Of a stretch of DNA of 23,454 nucleotides, positions 14,190-23,454 are shown piece after piece. The notes below the pieces were generated by a model, which saw only the letters and a program-made list of their open reading frames with translations, did no database searches and was not told the origin of the DNA. This DNA is from a virus, in the IMG/VR virus record IMGVR_UViG_3300031857_001434, positions 1 through 23,454 of that record; one strand, 5' to 3'. Made by a program: the position numbers and the translations under genes. Position 1 is the stretch's first letter; the number at the start of each line of letters is the position of its first letter.

Positions 14190-14569
14190 CGGAAGAGATT
14201 CCCGTATTGGCTGGCGAGCAGGCCCGGTTGATCTGGCAGGATTATTTACGTCGGACGCAGCAAGGAAATAGCGGCGGCGATAAAGGGCCACGACCGACCG
14301 GAACGCAGCCACCGATTGCGGTGATACTGGATGCGGCACTTGGCGTTGCTACGCATGCACTGACCGGTGCGACGTCGGCAATGGCTACTCGTTGCGATTG
14401 GTCCGTATCGGACGAGGAATATACTGAGGCACCTGACAGCGTACCACAGGTGAAAGTCTGGAACCACAGCGAATCGGACGAATACGAAATCAACACGTTC
14501 GGTAAAGCTGAATGGATTGACGGGCACTGGTGGTTCATGGGCGACTGCGGGCCGATGGCATCGAGGTAA
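14186..14569 (+). CDS. Small tail protein, unknown function
   Basis: A 127-residue protein is coupled by ATGA to its upstream neighbour and lies directly before the fibre gene. It has a helical N-terminus (LAGEQARLIWQDYLRRTQQG), a Gly/Pro/Ser-rich linker near 27-42 (NSGGDKGPRPTGTQPP), and a C-terminal half rich in aromatic and acidic residues ending WIDGHWWFMGDCGPMASR. Tail position and small size suggest a fibre-attachment or assembly protein, but nothing in the sequence identifies it. The linker suggests two separately folding parts. Confidence 0.55.
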   Translation: MTEEIPVLAGEQARLIWQDYLRRTQQGNSGGDKGPRPTGTQPPIAVILDAALGVATHALTGATSAMATRCDWSVSDEEYTEAPDSVPQVKVWNHSESDEYEINTFGKAEWIDGHWWFMGDCGPMASR

Positions 14570-14574
14570 ACGAT

Positions 14575-17500
14575 ATGGCGTTTCGTGTCTGCTGTAGTTG
14601 CCGGGAATTCGATTACGTGAATGTTAAAGCATTCACAGCATCATCAGGCGTGTGGGCATGGGAGAAAAAAGCACTGGCGGTCATGTGCTCGCCAAACAAT
14701 ACCGTTAGAATTCTGCGACAACGCGAAACCTCCGGCTGGACGAATTCAGACACAGCGAACTTTGCCACAGATGGCGGGCTCGGTGTGCTCACCTTGAGAC
14801 CCAGTGCAACCGTGAACACGGTGTGGACAACGAACACCGCAGCAAATATTGACGATGCGATCAGTCCGCCGTCCGGCACAGGTGACGGCTCAATCTGTCA
14901 GGCAGTTGGTCCAACGGACCACAACGATGAACAGCAATGGGCGGTGTCGGGCAGTTACACCGCAGGCACCAACGTCATCAAAGCAGTGTCAATATGGATG
15001 CTGGCAAAGAAGACGTTGACGACGAACTTCCAGCTCAGGCCGGTCGATTCGATAGTTGCAGAAGTGGTAACGCAGCCAACGGCTGGTAACGGAACGTTCA
15101 CAACGTTTTCAACTACTTTGGGCTCAGACACGATTGTCAACACGTGGGAAATGGACACTGCTACGACAACGGCGGCACCCGTCAAAATCACGGTCTGGAT
15201 ATACTGCAGATTCGACAGCAACACAGACGGCACAATCAGCGGTATTCGGCTGCGATCCAATGGCACGTTTTACAGTCGCACGTTGACGGGCTTGCCTGCC
15301 GGTGGCTCGTGGGGTTGGTGCTACGCAGAATTCACTGAGACATTCACTAACGCATCGACGGCGGATTACGCCGTTGAACTCACGATGCCGCTGGCGACCG
15401 TAGATGGCGTTGTTGACATCGACACTATTTACTTCGACGTGGAAATGCCGACGACTGCTGCCGGAATCAGTGCTGTGAAATTCCGCAGCAACGGCACATG
15501 GTACACAGCAGCGACGGCACCAACGCTGACGACAAGCTACGCCTGGCACAGAGTAGACATCGAAGCCACATCGTCTTGGACGCTTTCTACATCGTCGCCA
15601 GCGGTAGCACTGAAAGCGGATGTGCCGAATGCTGGGACGTCCATTGAGGTGGAAGCGGTGCTTGTGTCTGCACTGGCAACAAACAGCCCGTTTACATATC
15701 CCAGCGGCACGACACCGGCAAGCAATTACAAACAGTACGCAGTAGACAGTGTTATCGTTGCGAACGATGGCACGGAAACCGCAGGTGCGACGGATTGCGA
15801 ATTGTTCGAGGTGCTGTGGGATCGAACTAGCTCCAGTGCATGGGTCAGAAGAGGGCTTCCGCTGTCTCCACCGGCGCGAATGATTTATTCGACAGACAAT
15901 CGCTGCAGCAATGGTGGTGTGGTTGTGGATTCCGTCGTACCACAACTGCAAACGTTTGATTTGTGGAAACGAGCGACGGTAAAAAAATATCGCATTTGTC
16001 CGGGCTGGAATGACAACACTGGCTCACCGTTGCAAATTGTGTTTCGCAGGTTCGCAAGTAGTGCGACGCTGACACATGAAGACGACGCAGCGACAATTGA
16101 CACCGCACTAACCGCACTCGATGGCGTCGTGTCAGTGACGGTCACTGGTGGACCGTTGTTTGTAAAAAACGTTGACATTGAAATTACATGGGCTGCGGCA
16201 ACAGATCAGTTTCATTCAGTGCATGGCGTGAACTTTTCGACCAGTTCCAATCAGGCGGCAGCAGTTGTCGACATCGATGATTACCAAGTCACCGGTTACT
16301 GGGAAAACGCATCACGTCCACCCTACTGGACATCTTCCGGCACGGACGCATTGCAAACCGTCGATCAAATTATCAGTAGTGTGAATTGGTATACGCTGCG
16401 ACGATACGCACCGACAACAGACGCAGACGGCTGGACTGTGTACACCAGTTTGGTATGGAACAGTAAGATAACAACTGCTGCGATCGGCGGTACGCTGTCA
16501 GGTGGTAACATGGTTTCGCATGCTCGAAACGGTGTCATCATTGGGGCACATTCGCGGCGAAACTTTTCGTCCAGTGTCAATAAGTACAACTATTTCGTTT
16601 TGGATGAAACTGATGGAAGTGGACTGCCAGACGGTGAGCCGACAGATCAATACATCAACGGTACTGGCGACACCGGACATTCCACAATTGACAAGGCGTA
16701 CATCGCAGACAATGACAAACACATCGTTTACGGATTGCAGGATTCTGCGGCGCTGTTGACGAATGAGCTGTGGGAGATGCCAGCGACACCGAATCAACTA
16801 AATCCAGATCGTTTAATTCTGCTCGGGAAACCACCAGTCAAATCTGATAACGATTACGTGTGGTCCACTGGCAATCTGTACGGATCTACGCCAGCATTAA
16901 ACGCGACGGTGCTTGATATAAGGTACGGTGGAGAAACAACTTTTAAAGCGTCCGGGGATGCGAACTTCGCGGCACATGCTTACAACGCACGAACCGTAAT
17001 CTTTCTGGGTAACCGCACCCGTTATCGCGGTAATACGATGGAATGGAGGTTTGTTCTGGGGTCGGTGGTTTCGGGGAATTGGAGCACTGGGTACAGCAGT
17101 GATTGGCTGCCGACAACTGCTGACGATGCCGATGCAAACACAGCGTTATTCGACATGTGGGGCAACACGTCCGATGCAACGCAGGCAATCAAGGTTGTGT
17201 TTAATGCGGCAGCGGTCGACGATCAAGAGCTGTCGTGGTTTTATCGTGGCGGAACTGTGCTGATTTGTATGGCCAGAAGCGGCAACACAACTGACACTAC
17301 AGTTGATAACCTCGTCCCGTTCGGGCTGACATTACGCATCGAAGTGCGGAATGCCAACACTGAGCGATTCCTCACAATCGCCAAAGAAAACTTTAACGAT
17401 GGTGTGGTGCAGTGGCAACGCAATGCGGGCGTTGCAGCTCTAACAGCCACAGTGACGCCGTCGACTGTTCTTGACAATGGGTCACAACTACTGGCTATCA

Positions 17501-17583
17501 GCGGCTGGTGGAGGCCACTGACAATTGACGAAGACACCGGTTTACCCACAGACGATGTGACAATATACGGCGAATTGCCGTAA
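14575..17583 (+). CDS. Large tail fibre / receptor-binding protein
   Basis: At 1002 residues this is the largest and last gene of the late operon. It is Thr/Ser/Ala/Asn-rich and beta-dominated, the composition of tail fibres or side tail proteins that contact the host surface. Two related modules of about 75 residues begin with GIRLRSNGTFYS near residue 222 and AVKFRSNGTWYT near residue 300. They look like beta-sandwich, possibly carbohydrate-binding, repeats. The first 60 residues contain a Cys-rich start (CCSCREFDYVN) that may anchor it to the tip. The start ATG 14575 has GAGGT upstream, five bases after the previous stop; an earlier in-frame ATG at 14530 lies inside the previous gene. A hairpin terminator follows about 60 bases after the stop. 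Confidence 0.7.
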   Translation: MAFRVCCSCREFDYVNVKAFTASSGVWAWEKKALAVMCSPNNTVRILRQRETSGWTNSDTANFATDGGLGVLTLRPSATVNTVWTTNTAANIDDAISPPSGTGDGSICQAVGPTDHNDEQQWAVSGSYTAGTNVIKAVSIWMLAKKTLTTNFQLRPVDSIVAEVVTQPTAGNGTFTTFSTTLGSDTIVNTWEMDTATTTAAPVKITVWIYCRFDSNTDGTISGIRLRSNGTFYSRTLTGLPAGGSWGWCYAEFTETFTNASTADYAVELTMPLATVDGVVDIDTIYFDVEMPTTAAGISAVKFRSNGTWYTAATAPTLTTSYAWHRVDIEATSSWTLSTSSPAVALKADVPNAGTSIEVEAVLVSALATNSPFTYPSGTTPASNYKQYAVDSVIVANDGTETAGATDCELFEVLWDRTSSSAWVRRGLPLSPPARMIYSTDNRCSNGGVVVDSVVPQLQTFDLWKRATVKKYRICPGWNDNTGSPLQIVFRRFASSATLTHEDDAATIDTALTALDGVVSVTVTGGPLFVKNVDIEITWAAATDQFHSVHGVNFSTSSNQAAAVVDIDDYQVTGYWENASRPPYWTSSGTDALQTVDQIISSVNWYTLRRYAPTTDADGWTVYTSLVWNSKITTAAIGGTLSGGNMVSHARNGVIIGAHSRRNFSSSVNKYNYFVLDETDGSGLPDGEPTDQYINGTGDTGHSTIDKAYIADNDKHIVYGLQDSAALLTNELWEMPATPNQLNPDRLILLGKPPVKSDNDYVWSTGNLYGSTPALNATVLDIRYGGETTFKASGDANFAAHAYNARTVIFLGNRTRYRGNTMEWRFVLGSVVSGNWSTGYSSDWLPTTADDADANTALFDMWGNTSDATQAIKVVFNAAAVDDQELSWFYRGGTVLICMARSGNTTDTTVDNLVPFGLTLRIEVRNANTERFLTIAKENFNDGVVQWQRNAGVAALTATVTPSTVLDNGSQLLAISGWWRPLTIDEDTGLPTDDVTIYGELP

Positions 17584-17640
17584 CCGAAAGCACCGACCGT
17601 CGTAGAGGCATCAAGCAGGCCGACACCACAGCACCGGGAG

Positions 17641-17666
17641 AGCCGCTGCGAGCAATCGCAGCGGCT
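17641..17666 (+). terminator. Hairpin closing the late operon
   Basis: AGCCGCTGCG (17641-17650) and CGCAGCGGCT (17657-17666) form a perfect 10-bp stem with the loop AGCAAT. It lies 58 bases after the fibre stop. The bases that follow (CGCTGTGTTTATCC) are only weakly T-rich, so this may need Rho or act as an mRNA 3'-end structure. Confidence 0.65.
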
Positions 17667-17682
17667 CGCTGTGTTTATCCTG

Positions 17683-17804
17683 CGCGAGTGATATTCAGCC
17701 CGTATCCCGCGCACGTCGTTATCATGTACCTGACTCCGCGAGTGATATTCCGCCGAGCCGAATAAAAACCCCGCGTTTTTGCGGGGTCGGCTGGGGATAT
17801 CACT
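17683..17804. repeat. Repeated CGCGAGTGATATTC motif, with an inverted relative
   Basis: CGCGAGTGATATTC occurs at 17683-17696 and again at 17737-17750, 54 bases apart. A shortened inverted copy (GGATATCACT) lies near 17795-17804. The copies lie between the late-operon hairpin and the cassette array. They could be protein-binding sites or traces of recombination. The region 17584-17821 otherwise contains no gene. Confidence 0.5.
17761..17786 (-). terminator. Rho-independent terminator of the cassette array transcript
   Basis: Read on the minus strand, CCCCGC and GCGGGG (17786-17781 and 17774-17769) form a GC-only stem around AAAAAC, followed directly by GGTTTTTATT. The T-run lies only on the minus-strand side, so the site stops leftward transcription coming from the cassettes, after the last cassette gene at 17823. 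It would also insulate the late operon from the array. Confidence 0.85.
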
Positions 17805-17821
17805 GGGACTGATAATTCAAA

Positions 17822-17828
17822 GTTATGC
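17822..17828 (+). other. Left boundary core (attI-like or secondary insertion site)
   Basis: GTTATGC here equals the right core of attC-2 and attC-5, but no left core or folding arms precede it. It is therefore the left edge of the array: the place where an attI, or a secondary integration site in the phage, would be joined to the first cassette. A second core-like GTCGTTATCATG lies at 17716-17727, outside the array. Confidence 0.5.
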
Positions 17829-18020
17829 GGACCGACCGACATATTGCATCGTCATAGATTCTGCACGCCACTTATCTTCACGGTCCGTTTTGAAAAACAC
17901 CTTGCCATCCGCTGTCAGCCCATACATCATCACGTTGCATTGTGTCGTGCTGTTGTTCTGCACTGATACACACTGAATTTGAACAAATTTTAATTGGCCA
18001 GCCATATCTGACAACGACAT
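17823..18020 (-). CDS. Cassette 1 protein, unknown function
   Basis: A 65-residue protein is the last gene of the array transcript. It is a small beta-type sequence, MAGQLKFVQIQCVSVQNN, then VMMYGLTADGKVFFKTDRED and KWRAESMTM. The pattern 'LTADGKVFFK...KW' resembles one blade or hairpin of beta-propeller-like small cassette proteins; this is only a resemblance. The stop codon TAA is formed by the first three bases of the cassette (TTA of the core at 17822-17828). The start is taken at ATG 18020, with a weak AGGT upstream; ATG 18005 is an alternative. The attC-1 site begins 21 bases upstream of the start. The array terminator lies just past the stop. Confidence 0.65.
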   Translation of the reverse strand: MSLSDMAGQLKFVQIQCVSVQNNSTTQCNVMMYGLTADGKVFFKTDREDKWRAESMTMQYVGRSA

Positions 18021-18041
18021 GTCACCATACCTAGAAAAGCC

Positions 18042-18128
18042 GCATAACAAGGCGATGAACCGGAGCGGCTTCCACCGGTCCCCGCATGGAAAAACAACCG
18101 TCCGCCCGGTTATCGCCGGGCGTTCTGC
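18042..18128 (+). repeat. attC-1 recombination site
   Basis: Left core GCATAAC (18042-18048), right core GTTCTGC (18122-18128). Arms GGCGAT-G-AACCGG and CCGGTTATCGCC pair with one unpaired G on the left arm. The loop is about 40 bases and includes the TTCCACCGG stretch. The next gene's stop begins at the base right after the right core. Confidence 0.85.
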
Positions 18129-18344
18129 CTACTCTGAAACCTGACGCCTTTTTGCTTCGCGACGTGCTTTCCGCAGCAGTGCGGGCAAGGCCCACTCAAC
18201 CATTGACTGACCGGCGGCATCAGCAGCCGCCCTCAGCTCGTCCCAGTCGTCATCTGAAATCCGCCCGAACTGGCGAGCGGGGTTCGGGTTGTACGCTCCG
18301 CGTTCTGTTGCGGGGCGGCCGCGTTTGTTATTCGTCATCATCAT
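18129..18344 (-). CDS. Cassette 2 small DNA-binding protein (AT-hook plus ribbon-helix-helix-like)
   Basis: A 71-residue basic protein. An AT-hook-like NKRGRPATERG stands near the N-terminus. A segment GRISDDDWDELRAAADAAGQSMVEWALPALLRKARRE at about 27-63 follows, with the strand-helix-helix pattern of Arc/MetJ-type ribbon-helix-helix repressors. It probably binds DNA as a dimer; the target is unknown. It ends exactly at the attC-1 right core and overlaps the preceding gene's 3' end by 17 bases, so it is translationally coupled. Three ATG codons in a row occur at the start (18344, 18341, 18338). The shared transcript with two more ORFs makes this a multi-gene cassette. Confidence 0.7.
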   Translation of the reverse strand: MMMTNNKRGRPATERGAYNPNPARQFGRISDDDWDELRAAADAAGQSMVEWALPALLRKARREAKRRQVSE

Positions 18345-18702
18345 CTCCGTGGCATCCGCAAATCACACAGCCAGAGTCGTATCTATACCCAGCATCCGAC
18401 GCCTTTTCATACACCTCACAATTTGAAAGAGGACGCCGCGACTTCTCAACGAACACAGAAACACAGCCTTTACGCTTATCTTTGCTTTCCCATGTGCATT
18501 CAATGGCGTATTCATAAACGACCCGGCTCGAAACAATTTCACCCAGCGAAACACTGTCGTACGCCTCTCTCAGAGACATTGACTTCAAATCTTTTGCCAT
18601 TCCGCACCCCTCGCAAAAGCCAGCCTCCCATTCTTCGAGAGACTGGCGACAACTGGCACACATCACGCCATGCTCATTGCATCCGCCATTGTGGACGCCC
18701 AT
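18328..18702 (-). CDS. Cassette 2 zinc-ribbon protein
   Basis: A 124-residue protein has an N-terminal four-Cys knuckle pair (CASC at about residues 15-18 and CEGC at about 32-35) and ends with CVICGCHGDDDDE, another Cys/His cluster with an acidic tail. The middle region, VVYEYAIECTWESKDKRKGCVSVFVEKSRRP, looks beta-stranded. I chose ATG 18702, which has GTGAGAG upstream; a later ATG at 18663 overlaps the upstream gene's stop as TGATG and would give 111 residues. The function is unknown; a nucleic-acid or metal-binding role is plausible. It lies between two other small genes of the same cassette and overlaps both. Confidence 0.6.
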   Translation of the reverse strand: MGVHNGGCNEHGVMCASCRQSLEEWEAGFCEGCGMAKDLKSMSLREAYDSVSLGEIVSSRVVYEYAIECTWESKDKRKGCVSVFVEKSRRPLSNCEVYEKASDAGYRYDSGCVICGCHGDDDDE

Positions 18703-18863
18703 CCGACTCTCACTTCGTTTTTGAAAATCCACCATTCTGACTTTCGCCCCTTGCTGTCGCCTCGGCACACTCGAAGATTGTCGTCACCCTTTTTGGCGAA
18801 CCACATTCCTTCAGAGTCTGAGTATTCCCACTTGATCCCGTTTTCGTTTCGTGTTCGGCTCAT
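18663..18863 (-). CDS. Cassette 2 small protein, unknown function
   Basis: A 66-residue protein rich in Trp, Lys, Asp and Gly: GIKWEYSDSEGMWFAKKGDDNL, then SEWWIFKNEVRVGWASTMADAMSMA. The alternating aromatic residues suggest one small beta sheet followed by a short helix; no family is recognised. It is the first gene of its cassette. ATG 18863 is preceded by GAGAG, and a very good promoter lies 45-72 bases upstream. The stop TGA is shared with an internal ATG of the next gene (TGATG). Confidence 0.65.
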   Translation of the reverse strand: MSRTRNENGIKWEYSDSEGMWFAKKGDDNLRVCRGDSKGRKSEWWIFKNEVRVGWASTMADAMSMA

Positions 18864-18907
18864 GTCTCTCGCTCCCGTGTTTAGTGTTGTGTTCGGCACT
18901 GACAGCA

Positions 18908-18935
18908 ATTCTATCGTCCCGTTCTTTGTTGTCAA
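18908..18935 (-). promoter_or_regulatory. Cassette-borne sigma70 promoter
   Basis: On the minus strand TTGACA (18935-18930, a perfect -35) and TAGAAT (18913-18908) are spaced by 16 bases. It lies in the 128-base gap between attC-2 and the first gene of cassette 2, the only cassette with such a leader. It would drive cassettes 2 and 1 independently of the array promoter. Confidence 0.75.
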
Positions 18936-18990
18936 TACAACAAATACGGATTTAGAAAAGGTTTTTCAGAAACTTTCCACAACAGGAGAG

Positions 18991-19080
18991 GCAGAACAAA
19001 GCGTTGAACCGGAACCGCGAACAACCCGTTTTCAGAATCGACGTCAACCGCTCGCGGTCCGGTTAACGCCGTCGTTATGC
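18991..19080 (+). repeat. attC-2 recombination site
   Basis: Left core GCAGAAC (18991-18997), right core GTTATGC (19074-19080). Left arm GCGTT-G-AACCGG-A-ACCGCGA against TCGCGGTCCGGTTAACGC leaves exactly two unpaired bases on the left arm, the classical attC pattern. The loop carries the shared GTTTTCAGAAT motif. Confidence 0.88.
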
Positions 19081-19083
19081 GGA

Positions 19084-19302
19084 CTAATCGACCCGCCATC
19101 CATCGGCAAGCATTTCGTCCGATGAACTGTACTGAATAAACCTCCCTGTTCCTCCGTCCCACACGTATCCAAGATTTACGTCCCAACATCCCTGAATCAC
19201 GAAACCATGCTGACGCTCACCATCTCGATTACGGATGACGCACAAGTATCGACCACCATCTGCAAAACATGGCCACTCAGACACGCTCAATAATTGACTC
19301 AT
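19084..19302 (-). CDS. Cassette 3 protein, unknown function
   Basis: A 72-residue protein with short strands separated by Gly/Asp turns: SEWPCFADGGRYLCVIRNRDGERQHGFVIQG, then WDVNLGYVWDGGTGRFIQYSSSDEMLADGWRVD. It is probably a small all-beta domain ending in a helix; no family is recognised. GGAGGG immediately before ATG 19302 is a strong ribosome binding site, squeezed into the 14 bases between the gene and attC-3. The stop TAG is 3 bases past the attC-2 right core, so the cassette holds almost nothing besides gene and attC. Confidence 0.7.
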   Translation of the reverse strand: MSQLLSVSEWPCFADGGRYLCVIRNRDGERQHGFVIQGCWDVNLGYVWDGGTGRFIQYSSSDEMLADGWRVD

Positions 19303-19316
19303 AAACCCTCCAATCC

Positions 19317-19405
19317 GCATAACAAAAAAATGCACCGGAGTTGCCGTCCGGCTGTTTTCTCATCGATACTCACCGGCGGCAACCCGGTGATTTTGTGCGT
19401 TATCC
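19317..19405 (+). repeat. attC-3 recombination site
   Basis: Left core GCATAAC (19317-19323), right core GTTATCC (19399-19405). Left arm AAAAT-G-CACCGG-A-GTTGCCG against CGGCAACCCGGTGATTTT again leaves a G and an A unpaired on the left side only. Confidence 0.88.
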
Positions 19406-19744
19406 GCACTGATGAGCAACCAACAAATGAACGCGAAAGTCTTCCGCTGACTCATAAATCGTATCACAACAGATCGCGCCCTTCGGTTCCCATTCGTAAT
19501 CATTGTCGATCCACCGGAACCCAGCCGCGTCTCCGAGCACCATCCCCATAGCTTCCCATGGGTCAGCATAAAACGTCGCGTGGCCTGGGCCGGCGTGAAT
19601 TTGCCACAGTTCCCTGCCACTGACCGGAAAAACGATTCCGTTTAACCACGGACCATCCATCCGGTTTTTCCATTGGAACCGCTGTGGAAGGCGGATAACA
19701 AGGCGTTGCACGGGAGCCGTCGGTTCAGCGTTTTCAGAATGCAT
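19400..19744 (-). CDS. Cassette 4 protein whose start lies inside attC-4
   Basis: A 114-residue protein of unknown function. Residues 1-17 (MHSENAEPTAPVQRLVI) are encoded by the loop and left arm of attC-4; the rest is cassette-specific. Visible pieces include DGPWLNGIVFPVSGRELWQIHAGPGHATFYADPWEAMGMVLG and a C-terminal AICCDTIYESAEDFRVHLLVAHQCG, which with its Cys and His residues could be a degenerate zinc finger. GGAGGAG, 7 bases before ATG 19744, is one of the best ribosome binding sites in the window and lies inside the attC. The stop TAA is the first three bases of the cassette (TTA of the attC-3 right core). Confidence 0.7.
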   Translation of the reverse strand: MHSENAEPTAPVQRLVIRLPQRFQWKNRMDGPWLNGIVFPVSGRELWQIHAGPGHATFYADPWEAMGMVLGDAAGFRWIDNDYEWEPKGAICCDTIYESAEDFRVHLLVAHQCG

Positions 19745-19784
19745 AGTTTTACTCCTCCGGCCACGTGAACGCCGGGCGTTATCC
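19693..19784 (+). repeat. attC-4 recombination site (contains a gene start)
   Basis: Left core GGATAAC (19693-19699), right core GTTATCC (19778-19784). Arms GGCGTT-G-CACGGG and the complement of CACGTGAACGCC pair with one unpaired G on the left. The loop contains the shared GTTTTCAGAAT and, on the minus strand, the ribosome binding site and ATG of the cassette 4 gene. Confidence 0.85.
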
Positions 19785-19785
19785 G

Positions 19786-19968
19786 TCAGACTTGTTTGGC
19801 AACGTCATGAGGACGGTATTTGATTCGCTGCGACTCTTTGTGAATACGACATACACAAGAATGACCGGTTGACTTCTCTGGTTCCCAATTATCCAAATCA
19901 CAATTGCACCGCATCCCATCGGCCTTCAGTTTACTTGCGATCTCTCTCAAGGTTCTTTCGTCCTGCAT
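19786..19968 (-). CDS. Cassette 5 Cys-containing small protein
   Basis: A 60-residue protein: an N-terminal helix (MQDERTLREIASKLKADG) is followed by a Cys/His-rich core, CNCDLDNWEP then GHSCVCRIH, and a basic tail (KESQRIKYRPHDVAKQV). Four cysteines in two C-x-C pairs suggest metal binding, although the spacing is not that of a standard zinc ribbon. The frame extends upstream to a GTG inside attC-5, but no ribosome binding site supports that. ATG 19968 with GGTG is more likely. The stop is 1 base past the attC-4 right core. Confidence 0.6.
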   Translation of the reverse strand: MQDERTLREIASKLKADGMRCNCDLDNWEPEKSTGHSCVCRIHKESQRIKYRPHDVAKQV

Positions 19969-19986
19969 AGCGTCACCACAAACGAC

Positions 19987-20079
19987 GGATAACAAAGCGG
20001 TGAACACGGAGCCGCCGATCTGCCGTGTTCACAAATCCGAGCCTCTTGTCGGCGGCCCGGTTACCGCTGGTCGTTATGC
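19987..20079 (+). repeat. attC-5 recombination site
   Basis: Left core GGATAAC (19987-19993), right core GTTATGC (20073-20079). Left arm AGCGGT-G-AACACGGAGCCGCCG folds on CGGCGGCCCGGTTACCGCT with the extra bases again on the left. It lacks the GTTTTCAGAAT loop motif and has its own loop. Confidence 0.86.
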
Positions 20080-20361
20080 GGACACCATTTCCGCGTCGAT
20101 TGCAGCATCAAGCCGATCGTGTGACGGGCAATCATGCCCAAGCTTTACCGATGTTTTTGGGTTTACCACGACACCGAGAACGCCATCATTCCAGTTCTGC
20201 GAACGCAACCACCTGTATCTGGCAGCGTCCGTGCGTATTGCTTCTTCCAGATCGGCAACCCTCGCCATCAGTGCATTGTGGGCTTTTGCAATTCGTGCTG
20301 TTCCAAAATGCTCTACTTCCGCATTGAGTGCGAACTCTGTCCATTGTCTGCTGAAATCCAT
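20074..20361 (-). CDS. Cassette 6 small helical protein (phage-type)
   Basis: A 95-residue protein: helices in the first half (WTEFALNAEVEHFGTARIAKAHNALMARVADLEEAIRTDAARYRWLRSQNW) and a compact C-terminal part ending SHDRLDAAIDAEM. The 'DAARYRWLR ... LDAAIDAEM' combination is one I associate with small accessory proteins found in phages and prophages; its function is not known. ATG 20361 has GAGGG four bases upstream and lies 13 bases from attC-6. A longer reading from a TTG in attC-6 (20382) is unlikely. The stop TAA is the first three bases of the cassette. Confidence 0.72.
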   Translation of the reverse strand: MDFSRQWTEFALNAEVEHFGTARIAKAHNALMARVADLEEAIRTDAARYRWLRSQNWNDGVLGVVVNPKTSVKLGHDCPSHDRLDAAIDAEMVSA

Positions 20362-20373
20362 GCTACCCTCGCC

Positions 20374-20463
20374 GCATAACAAAGCATTCCACCGGAGTGC
20401 CGCACCATCCGTTTTCAGAATTCCACACCGGGCTGCGGCACCCGGTGAATGCTGTCGTTATTT
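20374..20463 (+). repeat. attC-6 recombination site (near-identical to attC-8)
   Basis: Left core GCATAAC (20374-20380), right core GTTATTT (20457-20463). Arms AGCATT-C-CACCGG-A-GTGCCGCA and the complement of TGCGGCACCCGGTGAATGCT pair with two unpaired bases. Over 81 bases it differs from attC-8 by a single base, and that base is the unpaired one (C here, G there). Confidence 0.88.
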
Positions 20464-20549
20464 TGACTAAACACTGTGACGCGACTTAGGCGGTGTCTTT
20501 CACCTGATTCCTGCGTTTCCTCACGGATAAGCCGTATCGCATCACTGAA

Positions 20550-20713
20550 GCATCGGACGGGAGTCGAACCCGCTGGCTGTTGATGTTTCCCACAAATCGC
20601 CCCAGTGAATAAATCACATGCCGCTGCGAAGCTACGGGAATCGAACCCATCCATCTCACGGTCAGACACTGGTTGTCTTTCGATTTGCTACGTTTCCCAC
20701 ACGTCGCCGATGC
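20550..20713 (-). ncRNA. tRNA-like RNA with two T-arm motifs (possible tRNA remnants)
   Basis: On the minus strand the ends GCATCGG (20713-20707) and CCGATGC (20556-20550) are perfectly complementary over 7 bp, like an acceptor stem. A canonical T arm, GCGGG-TTCGACT-CCCGT, stands directly before the 3' strand. A second T arm, ATGGG-TTCGATT-CCCGT, lies 77 bases upstream. A GTGGGAAAC motif inside a small hairpin occurs twice (20700-20692 and 20593-20585). CAAATCG and CGATTTG can form an inner helix. I could not assign a normal anticodon arm, and no CCA is encoded, so this may be a degenerate tRNA pair, a tRNA with an insertion, or another structured RNA. It starts 8 bases after the cassette 7 gene's stop. 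Confidence 0.45.
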
Positions 20714-20720
20714 AACACAT

Positions 20721-20912
20721 CTATGACTTACTGAATCCAATTTCGCGAAGCGTTTTGATCGCTTCCACCAATTTCTGAATGTCCTTTTCCTCTGGCTGAA
20801 ACCGAAGACTGTTCCAGTACCAATCCAGTCCCAGTCTTTCAGAAAACGTGATTTCCGAATCGGTTTCCTCAGCCAGTTTCGCAATCTGTCGAAATGAATG
20901 CTTTAGTCCCAT
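20721..20912 (-). CDS. Cassette 7 small helical protein, unknown function
   Basis: A 63-residue acidic protein, MGLKHSFRQIAKLAEETDSE then FSERLGLDWYWNSLRFQPEEKDIQKLVEAIKTLREIGFSKS, predicted as two or three helices around an aromatic centre (LDWYWNSLRF). No family is recognised. GGAG six bases before ATG 20912 supports translation. A longer overlapping frame (20486-20884) runs through the tRNA-like element and is rejected as a shadow. The cassette differs from the others by a 250-base non-coding tail holding the tRNA-like RNA. Confidence 0.68.
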   Translation of the reverse strand: MGLKHSFRQIAKLAEETDSEITFSERLGLDWYWNSLRFQPEEKDIQKLVEAIKTLREIGFSKS

Positions 20913-20928
20913 CAGAACTCCGAAAGCA

Positions 20929-21020
20929 AAATAACAAGGCATTGCACACGGAGTTACGGTCCGCGCTGACTCAGAATTCCATATCCACCGGCCGCAACCC
21001 GGTTAACGCCGTCGTTATCG
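20929..21020 (+). repeat. attC-7 recombination site (imperfect arms)
   Basis: Left core AAATAAC (20929-20935, less typical), right core GTTATCG (21014-21020). Left arm GGCATT-G-CACACGG pairs only partly with CCGGTTAACGCC, so this site looks like a hybrid of two attC types. The loop contains TCAGAATTCCA, related to attC-6 and attC-8. Confidence 0.75.
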
Positions 21021-21024
21021 TGAC

Positions 21025-21234
21025 TCAATACCGAATATTCAGCCACCTACGGGAAGTGGACAACTCAAACCCTAGAATGCGAGCGTCTATTTTCTTTTGT
21101 TCGCATACAATCCGTTCTCCCACTATTACAGGAATCGCTGGTTTGACGCGAATCATTCGCCTGTCTTCATCCACCATAGCAATACATTTATGGCTATCGA
21201 TCGTCACTTCGCAGCCAAACATTTCGAACGACAT
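21025..21234 (-). CDS. Cassette 8 protein, unknown function
   Basis: A 69-residue beta-rich protein: MFGCEVTIDSHKCIAMVDEDRRMIRVKPAIPVIVGERIVCEQKKIDARILGFELSTSRRWLNIRY, read in pieces as MFGCEVTIDS, CIAMVDEDRRMIRVKP, VIVGERIVCEQKKID and ARILGFELSTSRRW. The regular alternation of hydrophobic and charged residues suggests a small barrel or sandwich; no family is recognised. It is the first cassette gene after the array promoter and so probably the most strongly expressed. GGGTGG precedes ATG 21234 at good spacing; the gene ends 4 bases past the attC-7 right core. Confidence 0.68.
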   Translation of the reverse strand: MSFEMFGCEVTIDSHKCIAMVDEDRRMIRVKPAIPVIVGERIVCEQKKIDARILGFELSTSRRWLNIRY

Positions 21235-21247
21235 TGAACCACCCGCA

Positions 21248-21338
21248 CGATAACAAAGCATTGCACCGGAGTGCCGCACCATCCGTTTTCAGAATTCCAC
21301 ACCGGGCTGCGGCACCCGGTGAATGCTGTCCCTTACGT
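21248..21338 (+). repeat. attC-8 recombination site with degenerate right core
   Basis: Left core CGATAAC (21248-21254), and arms and loop are identical to attC-6 except for one base. The expected right core after GCTGTC (ending 21330) is replaced by CCTTACG. A good core, GTTCTGC, is found 16 bases further at 21347-21353. The site may be inactivated, or an insertion may separate arm and core. Confidence 0.8.
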
Positions 21339-21395
21339 ACTGCGTTGTTCTGCAGCGTATTGTTCGGCCATTCGTTTTTGAACGCAATGTGGAGC

Positions 21396-21423
21396 ACTAT
21401 ACAAAAATGAATAGTGGCGTCAA
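21396..21423 (-). promoter_or_regulatory. Array promoter (Pc-like)
   Basis: On the minus strand TTGACG (21423-21418) and TATAGT (21401-21396) are spaced by 16 bases, giving a strong sigma70-type promoter. It begins 5 bases after the recombinase stop and points into the cassette array, with the start point expected near 21389. There is no hairpin terminator between it and the first cassette. By position it plays the part of the cassette promoter of integrons. Confidence 0.75.
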
Positions 21424-21427
21424 GCCA

Positions 21428-22369
21428 TTATTTTGCAACCAATCTTTCTGCCGTGTCTGAAATGAGATTCTGCGCTTGTGGATCTAGACGGCGAAAATTC
21501 GTCAGCAAAGTTTCTTCAGCTCCTCCGGGTTTGTGATTTCCGAGCATCGCCGCAGGAACAGCCACACGAGGTGCGGCGGCCTGCAGCACGGTGAGCGGAT
21601 CCAGATAGTGCTGAAGCACCCCAATTCCGGAACCGTGAATTAGGCTACCAGCGGTGGCGTTCGCATTACTCCATTCATTTACAGAACGCTGCCGCATCAG
21701 TTTCGGATGGAAATACGTGACTCCGGCTGCCAAGCACGCCGCTTGCAAATGCTGCTTCAGGATTTTAGCGGTCCAGCCTTCAGCGTGTTGGTACGGTAAC
21801 TTATGCCGCACTGAAATGATTTCTGACAGCCATGCAGGAACCGGGTACTGATGCACATACCCGGTCTTGCTCGCTTCCCAGTACAGAACTGGGTCCGATG
21901 TCGGCAGGCTCAATTGCAACCTGAGTGAATCTCGCAGCCTGAGACCAGTCCACAGCGTCAGGGCGAGCCACTGTTGCAGCCATGGTGTGGCGTGCAGGTA
22001 CGCAGCGTTGATGGTTTCAAGTGCTACGGGTTTCGGCTTCGGCTTTGGTCGTCTCAATCGCTTTCCCGGGCTGAACGTCACACCAGTTGCAAACTTTATA
22101 ACCGTGCAGACATCGGTGATCGTTTTTTCGATGGTGACCGGAGAAAGGCAACTGGCCCGGCATCTTTCTCGAAATGCAGCCAGCATTTCGCTTTTGATGT
22201 CCGAGCATTGCTGAACCTGCATAACCCGCTCAAATCGCCTGCAATTTGAGGCGATCATGAAACTCCGCAAACCATTGGTGCGGACGTATTCTGCGGCCTG
22301 AAACGATAGAAACATGTGTGTGCTCCAAAAGTTGAGCACTCCTTCGCGAACCAGTTCCTTCACGCCCAT
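21428..22369 (-). CDS. Divergent tyrosine recombinase (phage-type integrase)
   Basis: A 313-residue enzyme that would cut and rejoin DNA through a tyrosine. Residues of about 50-105 look like the SAM-like core-binding domain (LSPVTIEKTITDVCTVIKF); the catalytic domain follows a basic linker (KRLRRPKPKPKP). Candidate catalytic residues: R144 in LWTGLRLRDSLRL, K168 in EASKTG, R226 in HPKLMRQRS, and Y255 in LQHYLDP. The usual H-x-x-R of box II reads K-L-M-R, with a His five residues before the Arg, and the usual G-H reads H-G, so the active site is atypical. The extra helix of IntI integrases between boxes is not seen, so I do not call it an integron integrase. ATG 22369 was chosen; a GTG at 22387 is possible. 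It ends just before the array promoter. Confidence 0.8.
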   Translation of the reverse strand: MGVKELVREGVLNFWSTHMFLSFQAAEYVRTNGLRSFMIASNCRRFERVMQVQQCSDIKSEMLAAFRERCRASCLSPVTIEKTITDVCTVIKFATGVTFSPGKRLRRPKPKPKPVALETINAAYLHATPWLQQWLALTLWTGLRLRDSLRLQLSLPTSDPVLYWEASKTGYVHQYPVPAWLSEIISVRHKLPYQHAEGWTAKILKQHLQAACLAAGVTYFHPKLMRQRSVNEWSNANATAGSLIHGSGIGVLQHYLDPLTVLQAAAPRVAVPAAMLGNHKPGGAEETLLTNFRRLDPQAQNLISDTAERLVAK

Positions 22370-22387
22370 GAAATCGCAGAGCGCCAC

Positions 22388-22622
22388 ACACTACAGGACA
22401 GCAAAAAAATCAATATGCGAGATGTTACTACCCTCCCATACGGCAGCATCCTATGCCTGCCTCCGCAATAGACCTCCTGCCTTAGTAACGGGTGATTCCC
22501 AAGCTGAGGATGCGATTTCGATTATCGCCAGCCGCTTTTCCGTTGTCAGACGCATGTTCTCGCGAGGGGCATGGCTGCTGAAGACAAGTCTCGCAGTTAC
22601 GAACGCCTGACAGCGGAAATTC
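22388..22622. other. Gene-free divergent region with paired short repeats
   Basis: No convincing gene lies between the recombinase and the regulator promoter. CCTGCCT occurs at 22456-22462 and 22476-22482, 20 bases apart (two helix turns). GTTACTA at 22424-22430 is complementary to TAGTAAC at 22483-22489. Such sites beside an integrase could be arm-type or operator sites (part of attP), but no core or flanking direct repeat can be shown. Confidence 0.35.
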
Positions 22623-22651
22623 TTGCAACGTCTTATTCAATCTTGTATAGT
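22623..22651 (+). promoter_or_regulatory. Promoter of the regulator gene, probably leaderless
   Basis: TTGCAA (22623-22628) and TATAGT (22646-22651) are separated by exactly 17 bases. The expected start point, 7 bases after the -10, falls on the ATG at 22658, so the transcript may begin with the start codon itself. Confidence 0.75.
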
Positions 22652-22657
22652 GACAGG

Positions 22658-22927
22658 ATGCAAACAATGTTCGAAAAGAAAGCAGCAAAAAAAGCGATTG
22701 CAGAAAACCTGCATTTGTTGATGGAAGCGTTTTCGTTGTCGCAAAGCGAATTGGCTCGTCGCGCCAATGTGAAACAGGTCTTCATCAGCCGATTGCTTGA
22801 TGAAATTATGGTCCCAAATTCTGTGGACCTTGGAAACGTAGCCGAAGTCCTTGGCACCACAGGAGATGGGTTAATGCGAAAAAATACTGCGAAAAATATT
22901 TTGAAGAATCTTCAGCACTCGGCTTGA
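22658..22927 (+). CDS. Cro/CI-type helix-turn-helix regulator
   Basis: An 89-residue DNA-binding protein. Residues 13-65 form a typical Xre/Cro helix-turn-helix domain: AENLHLLMEAFSLSQSELARRANVKQVFISRLLDE, then DLGNVAEVLGTT. There is no C-terminal cleavage or peptidase domain, so it resembles Cro or a short repressor more than lambda CI. It is divergent from the recombinase and is a reasonable candidate to control it or the lysis-lysogeny choice (inference). The frame is open to 22571, but the promoter fixes the start at ATG 22658; ATG 22667 is an alternative with a 9-base leader. A strong terminator follows the stop. Confidence 0.85.
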   Translation: MQTMFEKKAAKKAIAENLHLLMEAFSLSQSELARRANVKQVFISRLLDEIMVPNSVDLGNVAEVLGTTGDGLMRKNTAKNILKNLQHSA

Positions 22928-22955
22928 CAGTTAATCAAATTTGAATAACACTTCC

Positions 22956-22999
22956 CCCGTCGATTCGGCTTCGTAACCGGTTCGACGGGTTTTTGTTTT
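22956..22999 (+). terminator. Rho-independent terminator after the regulator
   Basis: CCCGTCGA (22956-22963) pairs with TCGACGGG (22982-22989), with further pairing of CGG/CCG inside, and is followed by TTTTTGTTTT. It lies 28 bases after the regulator stop, so the regulator is a single-gene unit. Confidence 0.88.
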
Positions 23000-23092
23000 G
23001 AGACTTGTCGCTCGTGATTACGGATCACATCAGCCGGAGCATTCGGTTGCAGCGGCGCAACTTGTCCAGCAGAAGCTGGTCGGAGGTTGTGT

Positions 23093-23212
23093 ATGTTTGC
23101 TTTTCTTCGTCGCCTGCGCGATGCCTGGAAGTGCCCTGCGTGTGGCACTGTGAACCCTAAGTCTGCTGGGACCGCGTCCATTTGTTCTTGCGGTGCGTAT
23201 CACCGCAATTGA
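23093..23212 (+). CDS. 39-residue zinc-ribbon microprotein
   Basis: A very short gene: MFAFLRRLRDAW is an amphipathic basic helix, and CPACGTVNPKSAGTASICSCG forms a C-x2-C plus C-x-C zinc-ribbon pattern, ending AYHRN. GGAGG seven bases before ATG 23093 is an excellent ribosome binding site, and a hairpin follows the stop, which together support a real gene despite its size. The function is unknown; such rubredoxin-like knuckles are common in small phage proteins that bind nucleic acid or a host protein. Confidence 0.6.
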   Translation: MFAFLRRLRDAWKCPACGTVNPKSAGTASICSCGAYHRN

Positions 23213-23220
23213 AACAGCAC

Positions 23221-23251
23221 GATGCACCGGATTGTTTTCGGTGCATCATTT
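23221..23251 (+). terminator. Hairpin after the zinc-ribbon microgene
   Basis: GATGCACCG (23221-23229) pairs perfectly with CGGTGCATC (23239-23247) around GATTGTTTT and is followed by ATTT. The U-tract is short; it may be a weak terminator. Confidence 0.55.
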
Positions 23252-23331
23252 CGCGGTCCTCAGCCAGTGGCTCTGTCCGACTGCTGCGACTGAGGCCGCG
23301 TTTTCTCAACGCTCATAACGGAGTGTGTCCC

Positions 23332-23427
23332 ATGAATGAATTCATAGCCATCTTTTTCGCTGTGCTCGGCGGCATCGTCTGCTGGGTAATCACTGACGAA
23401 AACCTGCGGCGAAACGACCGCGACTAA
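23332..23427 (+). CDS. 31-residue single-helix membrane peptide
   Basis: A very short gene with GGAG at suitable distance before ATG 23332. Residues 4-19 (FIAIFFAVLGGIVCWV) form one membrane helix and the tail is charged (TDENLRRNDRD). Size, charge pattern and location in a phage early region suggest a small membrane-active or membrane-anchored peptide; nothing more specific can be said. The frame is open upstream to 23182, but that part overlaps the preceding gene and hairpin and looks non-coding. Confidence 0.5.
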   Translation: MNEFIAIFFAVLGGIVCWVITDENLRRNDRD

Positions 23428-23454
23428 ACGCATGCTCCGCACTGGAGGCGGTCT

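Follow-up and report, generated by a model that had tools for sequence, protein, structure and literature searches.

Introduction

Clusters of integron attC sites are already on record from phages: among 10,705 phage genomes, Qi et al. 2023 (PMC9892861) counted 3 integrons, one In0 and 17 attC clusters, IntI1 used five of the six phage attC sites tested, and, in the part of that report considered here, an attI site at a cluster of attC sites lacking an integron integrase (CALIN) is given for one cryptic Shewanella prophage. Here we describe an array of eight attC-like sites in IMG/VR virus record IMGVR_UViG_3300031857_001434, the whole of which (23,454 bases, the complete record) was analysed and is called the window below. 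A preliminary description of the window had named chromosomes and plasmids as the known places of cassette arrays, to which the phage-borne clusters (Qi et al. 2023, PMC9892861) have to be added. We consider it likely that the array is an integron platform without an integrase, kept at one locus by a phage lineage that probably infects planctomycetes. Beyond what the preliminary description had claimed, we found an attI site, open reading frames (ORFs) running antisense to the attC sites, and no integron integrase above cut-off in 12 phage records.

Two further known settings bear on this locus. The moron (lysogenic-conversion) loci of phages hold accessory genes between the tail genes and the integrase/repressor block, and the peptides of class 1 attI sites are a case of a translation signal tied to an integron recombination site.

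attC Sites and Cassette Boundaries

The eight sites of the window have common left arms and matching right arms; the arms pair, leaving two bases of the left arm unpaired. Canonical attC sites likewise have two unpaired bases, on the same arm and at similar spacing. When the eight sites were aligned, both sides had changed in 9 of 19 pairs, and 92.8% of the alignment cells were able to pair, a value that none of 500 shuffles reached and that compares with 25-44% for slid controls. Single-strand folds of the individual sites were mostly better than those of shuffled sequences, with site 7 weak (z -0.18 on the + strand and -1.69 on the - strand), and the right core of site 8 is degenerate (CCCTTAC). 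The eight attC-like sites with paired cores and unpaired left-arm bases that the preliminary description had proposed are thus borne out by covariation, pairing and shuffle controls, and the locus shows the repeated sites, R and L boxes, hairpin fold and one-arm unpaired bases of an attC cluster, sites 7 and 8 being imperfect. Sites 6 (20376-20456) and 8 (21250-21330) are 99% identical over 81 nt, their cassette bodies being unrelated.

A covariance model built from these eight sites (R1), which is circular for the window itself, left 80 of 84 sources (830,765 bases) without a match at E up to 0.1; of 7 planctomycete regions fetched around chromosomal intI genes, 6 had attC matches to it. Failure of all sites against an attC model, which would have told against the array, was not seen. 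Searches of the window for tRNAs and at Rfam gathering thresholds returned nothing useful for the array.

With the cassettes delimited at G^TT, the first core complements the core of the cassette's own attC at 7 of 7 positions in all eight window cassettes. Such an own-core match was seen in 68 of 70 cassettes over nine distinct phage arrays, compared with 14.5 (sd 3.3, maximum 26) in within-array shuffles, and is what units that had at some time closed into circles would be expected to show. Among host cassettes 40 of 71 matched at 7 of 7 positions, the cores there being called more crudely than for the phages. The set of 70 leaves out G002 (a near copy of G003), G421 (a copy of the G422 array), L002 (a copy of the window), G424 (whose sole site is that of G423), and G418 and G420 (whose contigs end just after attI), and keeps cassettes common to several phages; G and L numbers are our handles for genomes, contigs and records. 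The core-match count took all 12 sites of G004, of which an earlier list of ORF directions (that with the host count of 3/47 given below) took 10.

Putative attI Site and Its Distribution

On the left the arrays begin with the sequence GATAATTCAAAG^TTR, whose context is of two types: A has a hairpin ACCCCGC..GCGGGGT and GGATATCAC, and B has GATATCAC..ACGGATAATTC. A viral scan with this pattern returned 62 stretches. Fifty of these had neither context and were discounted as chance occurrences; the 12 others bring the number of records with the site in context to 13, the window included. attC sites lie beyond it in all 11 records that leave room, the other two ending within 125 bases of it, and 4 to 12 cassettes were detected where the contig was long enough. 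Ten distinct loci carry ten different first cassettes. Position and conservation in 13 records point to this site as the probable entry end of the cassettes, and position 17822, where the preliminary description began the array, directly precedes the first base of cassette 1. GTGATAT-type repeats, both direct and inverted, lie upstream of the site at 17680-17700, 17734-17754 and 17794-17805 of the window; similar motifs occur in other phages and may be binding sites of an enzyme or regulator.

The preliminary description had proposed looking for the same array in other phage contigs, and it is indeed present in further viral records, with R1 attC matches in 9 of the 17 searched; G014, G016 and G018, with a single R1 match each, were kept outside further analysis. 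The attI region had no match among INPHARED phages, whose portal matches were all below 60% identity, and the exact attI sequence had four matches in 392 planctomycete genomes, none with attC beside it. Six host regions beside intI yielded an attI candidate with a matching core in four cases and none in two. Two of these candidates, GATGATAATTACGAG^TTATCCCG and CATCTAATACAAAG^TTATGTTG, resemble the phage site, a third, CAGATAATAAAGAG^TTATGTGG, is less like it, and the fourth is unlike it.

Probable Cassette Exchange Between Phages

Cassette 5 of the window is identical to cassette 1 of G012 over 295 nt, comprising body (208) and attC (87), and in G012 this cassette lies directly against attI. 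Cassette 4 and cassette 8 of G009 are 99.3% identical in body and 98.8% in attC. The flanks of both pairs show background-level similarity on either side, and the late genes of the two phages are 68-80% identical to those of the window. Identical or nearly identical body and attC with unrelated flanks imply that the mobile unit is the body with its right-hand attC; in both pairs, body and one attC have moved together, cut at G^TT.

In two further pairs the bodies are 98.5% and 98.8% alike but the attC sites only 71% and 84% (random attC pairs have a mean identity of 62, with a 95th percentile of 75). Such divergence appears to go beyond what simple cassette transfer explains, and we cannot fully account for it. 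Along with the degenerate last attC of the window, these two shared bodies with diverged sites would be compatible with the array being a fossil, assembled once by an integron and now spread and rearranged only by homologous recombination among phages. We regard this as unlikely, however, since the two best pairs have exact G^TT boundaries and unrelated flanks, cores are intact in 68 of 70 cassettes, and ten different cassettes stand first at attI.

Probable Recombining Enzyme and Host

The IntI profile TIGR02249 was above cut-off in none of 12 phage records, all of them possibly incomplete, so that the intI gene of a complete integron was not seen there; weak matches in four records were of a kind also seen in control genomes. 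The profile was above cut-off in 6 of 8 planctomycete metagenome-assembled genomes with this attC family. The likeliest engine of cassette movement would be a host IntI acting in trans. As a candidate IntI, the window's own integrase was rejected: it shares only 26% over 58 residues, and profile searches gave no IntI match. This protein had no Pfam, NCBIfam or meaningful PDB match, and the window as a whole had no TIGR02249 match.

That the cassettes are moved not by host IntI but by a phage enzyme, be it the tyrosine integrase of the phage itself or some other, must also be weighed, as an integrase lies beside or near the array in the window, L002, G003 and G419, and incomplete records may hide other enzymes. 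However, tblastn found no relative of the window integrase in the array-bearing G009, G011, G012 and G422, its kinship to IntI is undetectable beyond the short stretch just given, and in G003 the integrase gene is inverted relative to the array. We therefore give this alternative little credence and favour host IntI.

The attC left-arm pattern was found in 36 stretches of bacterial genomes, 28 of which bear planctomycete titles, and, of 150 genomes from one planctomycete order, 114 contain sites matched by R1. The pattern was also seen in L106, L109, L111, L116, L120, L124, L133 and L137, titled Desulfobacteraceae, Actinobacteria, Verrucomicrobia, Thiosymbion, Adonisia, Chloroflexales and Nitrospinota. 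Portal matches (E up to 1e-20) were present in 48 of 392 planctomycete genomes, at identities of only 25-35%. The phages probably infect planctomycetes, although no prophage of the lineage was found in those 392 genomes. In one planctomycete genome (G220; L251 / L273), about 20 kb separate a portal-like gene from a 39% relative of the cassette 4 protein, with no attC near this relative.

Location of the Array Within Phage DNA

The array sits, as the preliminary description had it, between late phage genes and a phage-type integrase/regulator block, with a fibre-like gene to its left and the integrase and a helix-turn-helix (HTH) regulator to its right. Record L002 equals window positions 21264-23454 at 100% identity and continues into RusA, Sak4, single-strand binding (SSB), phosphatase-like, helicase and methylase genes. 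In each of G009, G011, G419 and G422, a single contig unites tail genes, attI, the array and replication genes. Phage genes thus lie on both sides, and the contigs run from late genes through attI and array to replication genes, with no prophage end seen between 17600 and 17820. That the array is chromosomal, beside a prophage end and viral-looking only through the cut of the record, draws on the presence of the same attC family on planctomycete chromosomes but is ruled out for practical purposes by the L002 continuation and these four contigs, phage cassettes being moreover unlike host arrays in size and ORF direction.

The 43-kb record G004 holds late genes, attI, 12 attC sites and a 36% relative of the window integrase; its first 1,023 bases (G004:1-1023) and last 1022 bases, both in fibre-like genes, are 84% identical to each other. 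G003 has the same attI, six attC sites and an integrase 92% identical to that of the window, and tblastn found none of the window's structural genes in it; this region is bordered by a resolvase gene and, at its other flank, by a replication-initiation gene. It would seem from G003, whose structural genes do not match, that attI, array and integrase move between phage types. Compared with the window, the integrase of this region (L090:11223-21726) is inverted relative to the array.

Reversed Genes and Putative Translation Starts Inside attC

The small genes that the preliminary description saw between the attC sites do fall into eight delimited cassettes, but their main ORFs are on the - strand, antisense to attC polarity. 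The antisense ORF was the longer in 59 of 70 phage cassettes, compared with 8 of 72 host bodies (bodies below 150 or above 1500 nt left out) and 3 of 47 in another host sample, which had been picked with a pattern derived from phage attC; host contig L132/L269 is present in both samples. A gene running in the direction of attC, with attC at its 3' end, is usual but not absolute for cassettes and is not the arrangement found here. Of 56 short phage cassettes, 94.6% have an antisense ORF that spans 85% or more of the body and 23% a sense ORF that does so; for sequences simulated with matching dinucleotide composition the figure was 17%. One diverged pair differs at 23, 15 and 40 sites by codon position, as coding DNA would; other pairs differ too little for this test.

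A ribosome-site (Shine-Dalgarno) motif and ATG inside attC, opening into the ORF, were found in 17 of 70 phage attC sites (e.g., MHSENAEPTAPVQRLV), as opposed to 0 of 62 host sites (a sample chosen by the same phage-derived pattern), 1 of 87 in the host sample with the size limits above, and 0 of 70 in a mirror test. The ORF of cassette 4 has its start codon within its own attC, behind GGAGG, and the stop codon of many cassette ORFs is the TAA of the adjacent core. The single host site with an inside start (L264:4180) has a phage-like leader (MISQTARSAARVDRLVMPGF) and offset.

Of the 9 arrays, the five of type A have a leftward terminator-like hairpin ahead of attI, and the four of type B do not. 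Because of the antisense ORFs and this hairpin, the array is suggested to be a unit read towards attI. The ORFs face away from the direction of an attI-side Pc promoter, and the promoter-like site of the window has no counterpart in the 8 other arrays.

Cassette Content and Neighbouring Features

From 81 cassette ORFs listed, 73 were scanned for families, near duplicates and some short ones being left out. Most have no assigned function after these scans. Pfam matches are to DNA methylases, with 3 members, and otherwise to families seen once, among them a PAPS reductase and a SLOG-family domain; among the matches listed, PHROGs adds phage families and PADLOC gives mainly methylases. NCBIfam had no match for nine window cassette ORFs. 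Two methylases in planctomycete arrays (L118:4229-4924 and L225:744-1472, L225 also holding an intI above cut-off) share 31-43% identity with phage cassette methylases and, like these, are oriented against the attC polarity; L113 has a third relative, in sense orientation.

The late genes of the window include terminase, portal, capsid-protease, neck and tail genes. The fibre-like gene has no Pfam or PHROG match of its own and is matched at 96% in G418 and 92% in G423. Coordinates are collected in Table 1.

Table 1. Features of the array and its surroundings in the window. attC-like sites 1 to 8 belong to cassettes 1 to 8.
Feature	Position	Strand	ORFs (strand)	attC-like site	Remarks
Long fibre-like late gene	14530..17583	+			ORF; last before array; after portal, capsid, neck and tail genes
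Terminator-like hairpin after late genes	17640..17667	+			Pattern match only
Terminator-like hairpin facing leftward transcription out of array	17767..17788	-			Pattern match
attI-like site GATAATTCAAAG^TTA	17811..17825	+			Cut between 17822 and 17823; left end of array; 13 records
Cassette 1	17823..18122	+	17823-18050 (-)	18042-18129	
Cassette 2	18123..19074	+	18129-18344, 18328-18768, 18663-18935 (-)	18991-19081	
Cassette 3	19075..19399	+	19084-19335 (-)	19317-19406	
Cassette 4	19400..19778	+	19400-19744 (-)	19693-19785	
Cassette 5	19779..20073	+	19786-20007 (-)	19987-20080	
Cassette 6	20074..20457	+	20074-20382 (-)	20374-20464	
Cassette 7	20458..21014	+	20721-20942 or 20486-20884 (-)	20929-21021	Weak fold
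Cassette 8	21015..21330	+	21025-21282 (-)	21248-21338	Degenerate right core
Promoter-like site pointing into array	21396..21423	-			Pattern match; 5 such sites vs 4.2 expected
Phage-type integrase (weak), not IntI	21428..22387	-			phrog_1, E 4.4e-6
HTH regulator, repressor-like	22571..22927	+			phrog_8 and others; Pfam HTH below cut-offs

Discussion

The comparisons above suggest that these viruses gather and exchange accessory genes in the manner of bacterial integrons, with an enzyme borrowed from the host. A chromosomal IntI of the host would act in trans on the folded attC strand, inserting cassettes at the phage attI and shuffling them, and the array would therefore be the phage's exchangeable accessory-gene locus. 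Transcription would run towards attI and end at the leftward terminator there; a new cassette would therefore join the far end of the transcription unit, with its own translation start. We lean, by a small measure, to the fuller view that this is a phage-adapted integron, in which attI stands without an integrase and is loaded by host IntI, a pool of the phages' own reversed cassettes has attC doubling as translation leader, so that attC may be evolving for both recombination and expression, and host integrons sometimes take up such cassettes.

Several observations weigh against the platform as we see it, the diverged attC sites of two body-sharing cassette pairs and the missing prophage among them. 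The phage records are fragments, which leaves room for an IntI elsewhere in the genomes. G006, G007 and G008, close relatives by their portal (about 83% identical), show neither attI nor attC; the host attI is only loosely similar to the phage site (2 of 6 regions resemble it); 53 of 70 phage attC sites have no Shine-Dalgarno-ATG leader; and comparison of the far ends of nine arrays brought no conserved promoter to light.

The platform offers a concrete route that integron cassettes might take in travelling by infection. This route is open to testing: different phages have cassettes in common, the viral attI is a defined one, and the enzyme to be supplied is that of the host. Reversed cassettes, with attC at the gene's 5' end, also bear on the fit between cassette capture and expression. 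The kind of element is already known, because phage attC clusters have been reported (Qi et al. 2023, PMC9892861); what is new is a viral attI platform that runs through a lineage and has reversed cassettes, some of which supply their own leader. Among the titles and abstract openings listed from one library of open papers, none described a phage attI platform with reversed cassettes.

Like the phage CALINs, the arrays described here are attC cassettes without intI in phages and include DNA methylase cassettes. As far as the part of the report considered here goes, those clusters are scattered, each in its own context (Qi et al. 2023, PMC9892861), whereas here one lineage has a conserved attI locus, up to 12 attC sites, antisense ORFs, and cassettes common to several phages. 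With the chromosomal integrons of planctomycetes the phage arrays share the attC structural family, and the intI-attI-array layout of the former supports the polarity used here; unlike the phage arrays, these integrons have intI, longer bodies (median 536 vs 273 nt in phages) and sense ORFs. In position the locus resembles the moron loci of phages but differs from them in that its genes are attC cassettes behind attI. Finally, in the translation signals reported at integron recombination sites (PMC4670013, in the part considered here), the sequence of the site likewise contributes to translation of the cassette gene; unlike in that case, the gene is reversed here, and it is the attC of this gene, at the 5' end, that holds the start.

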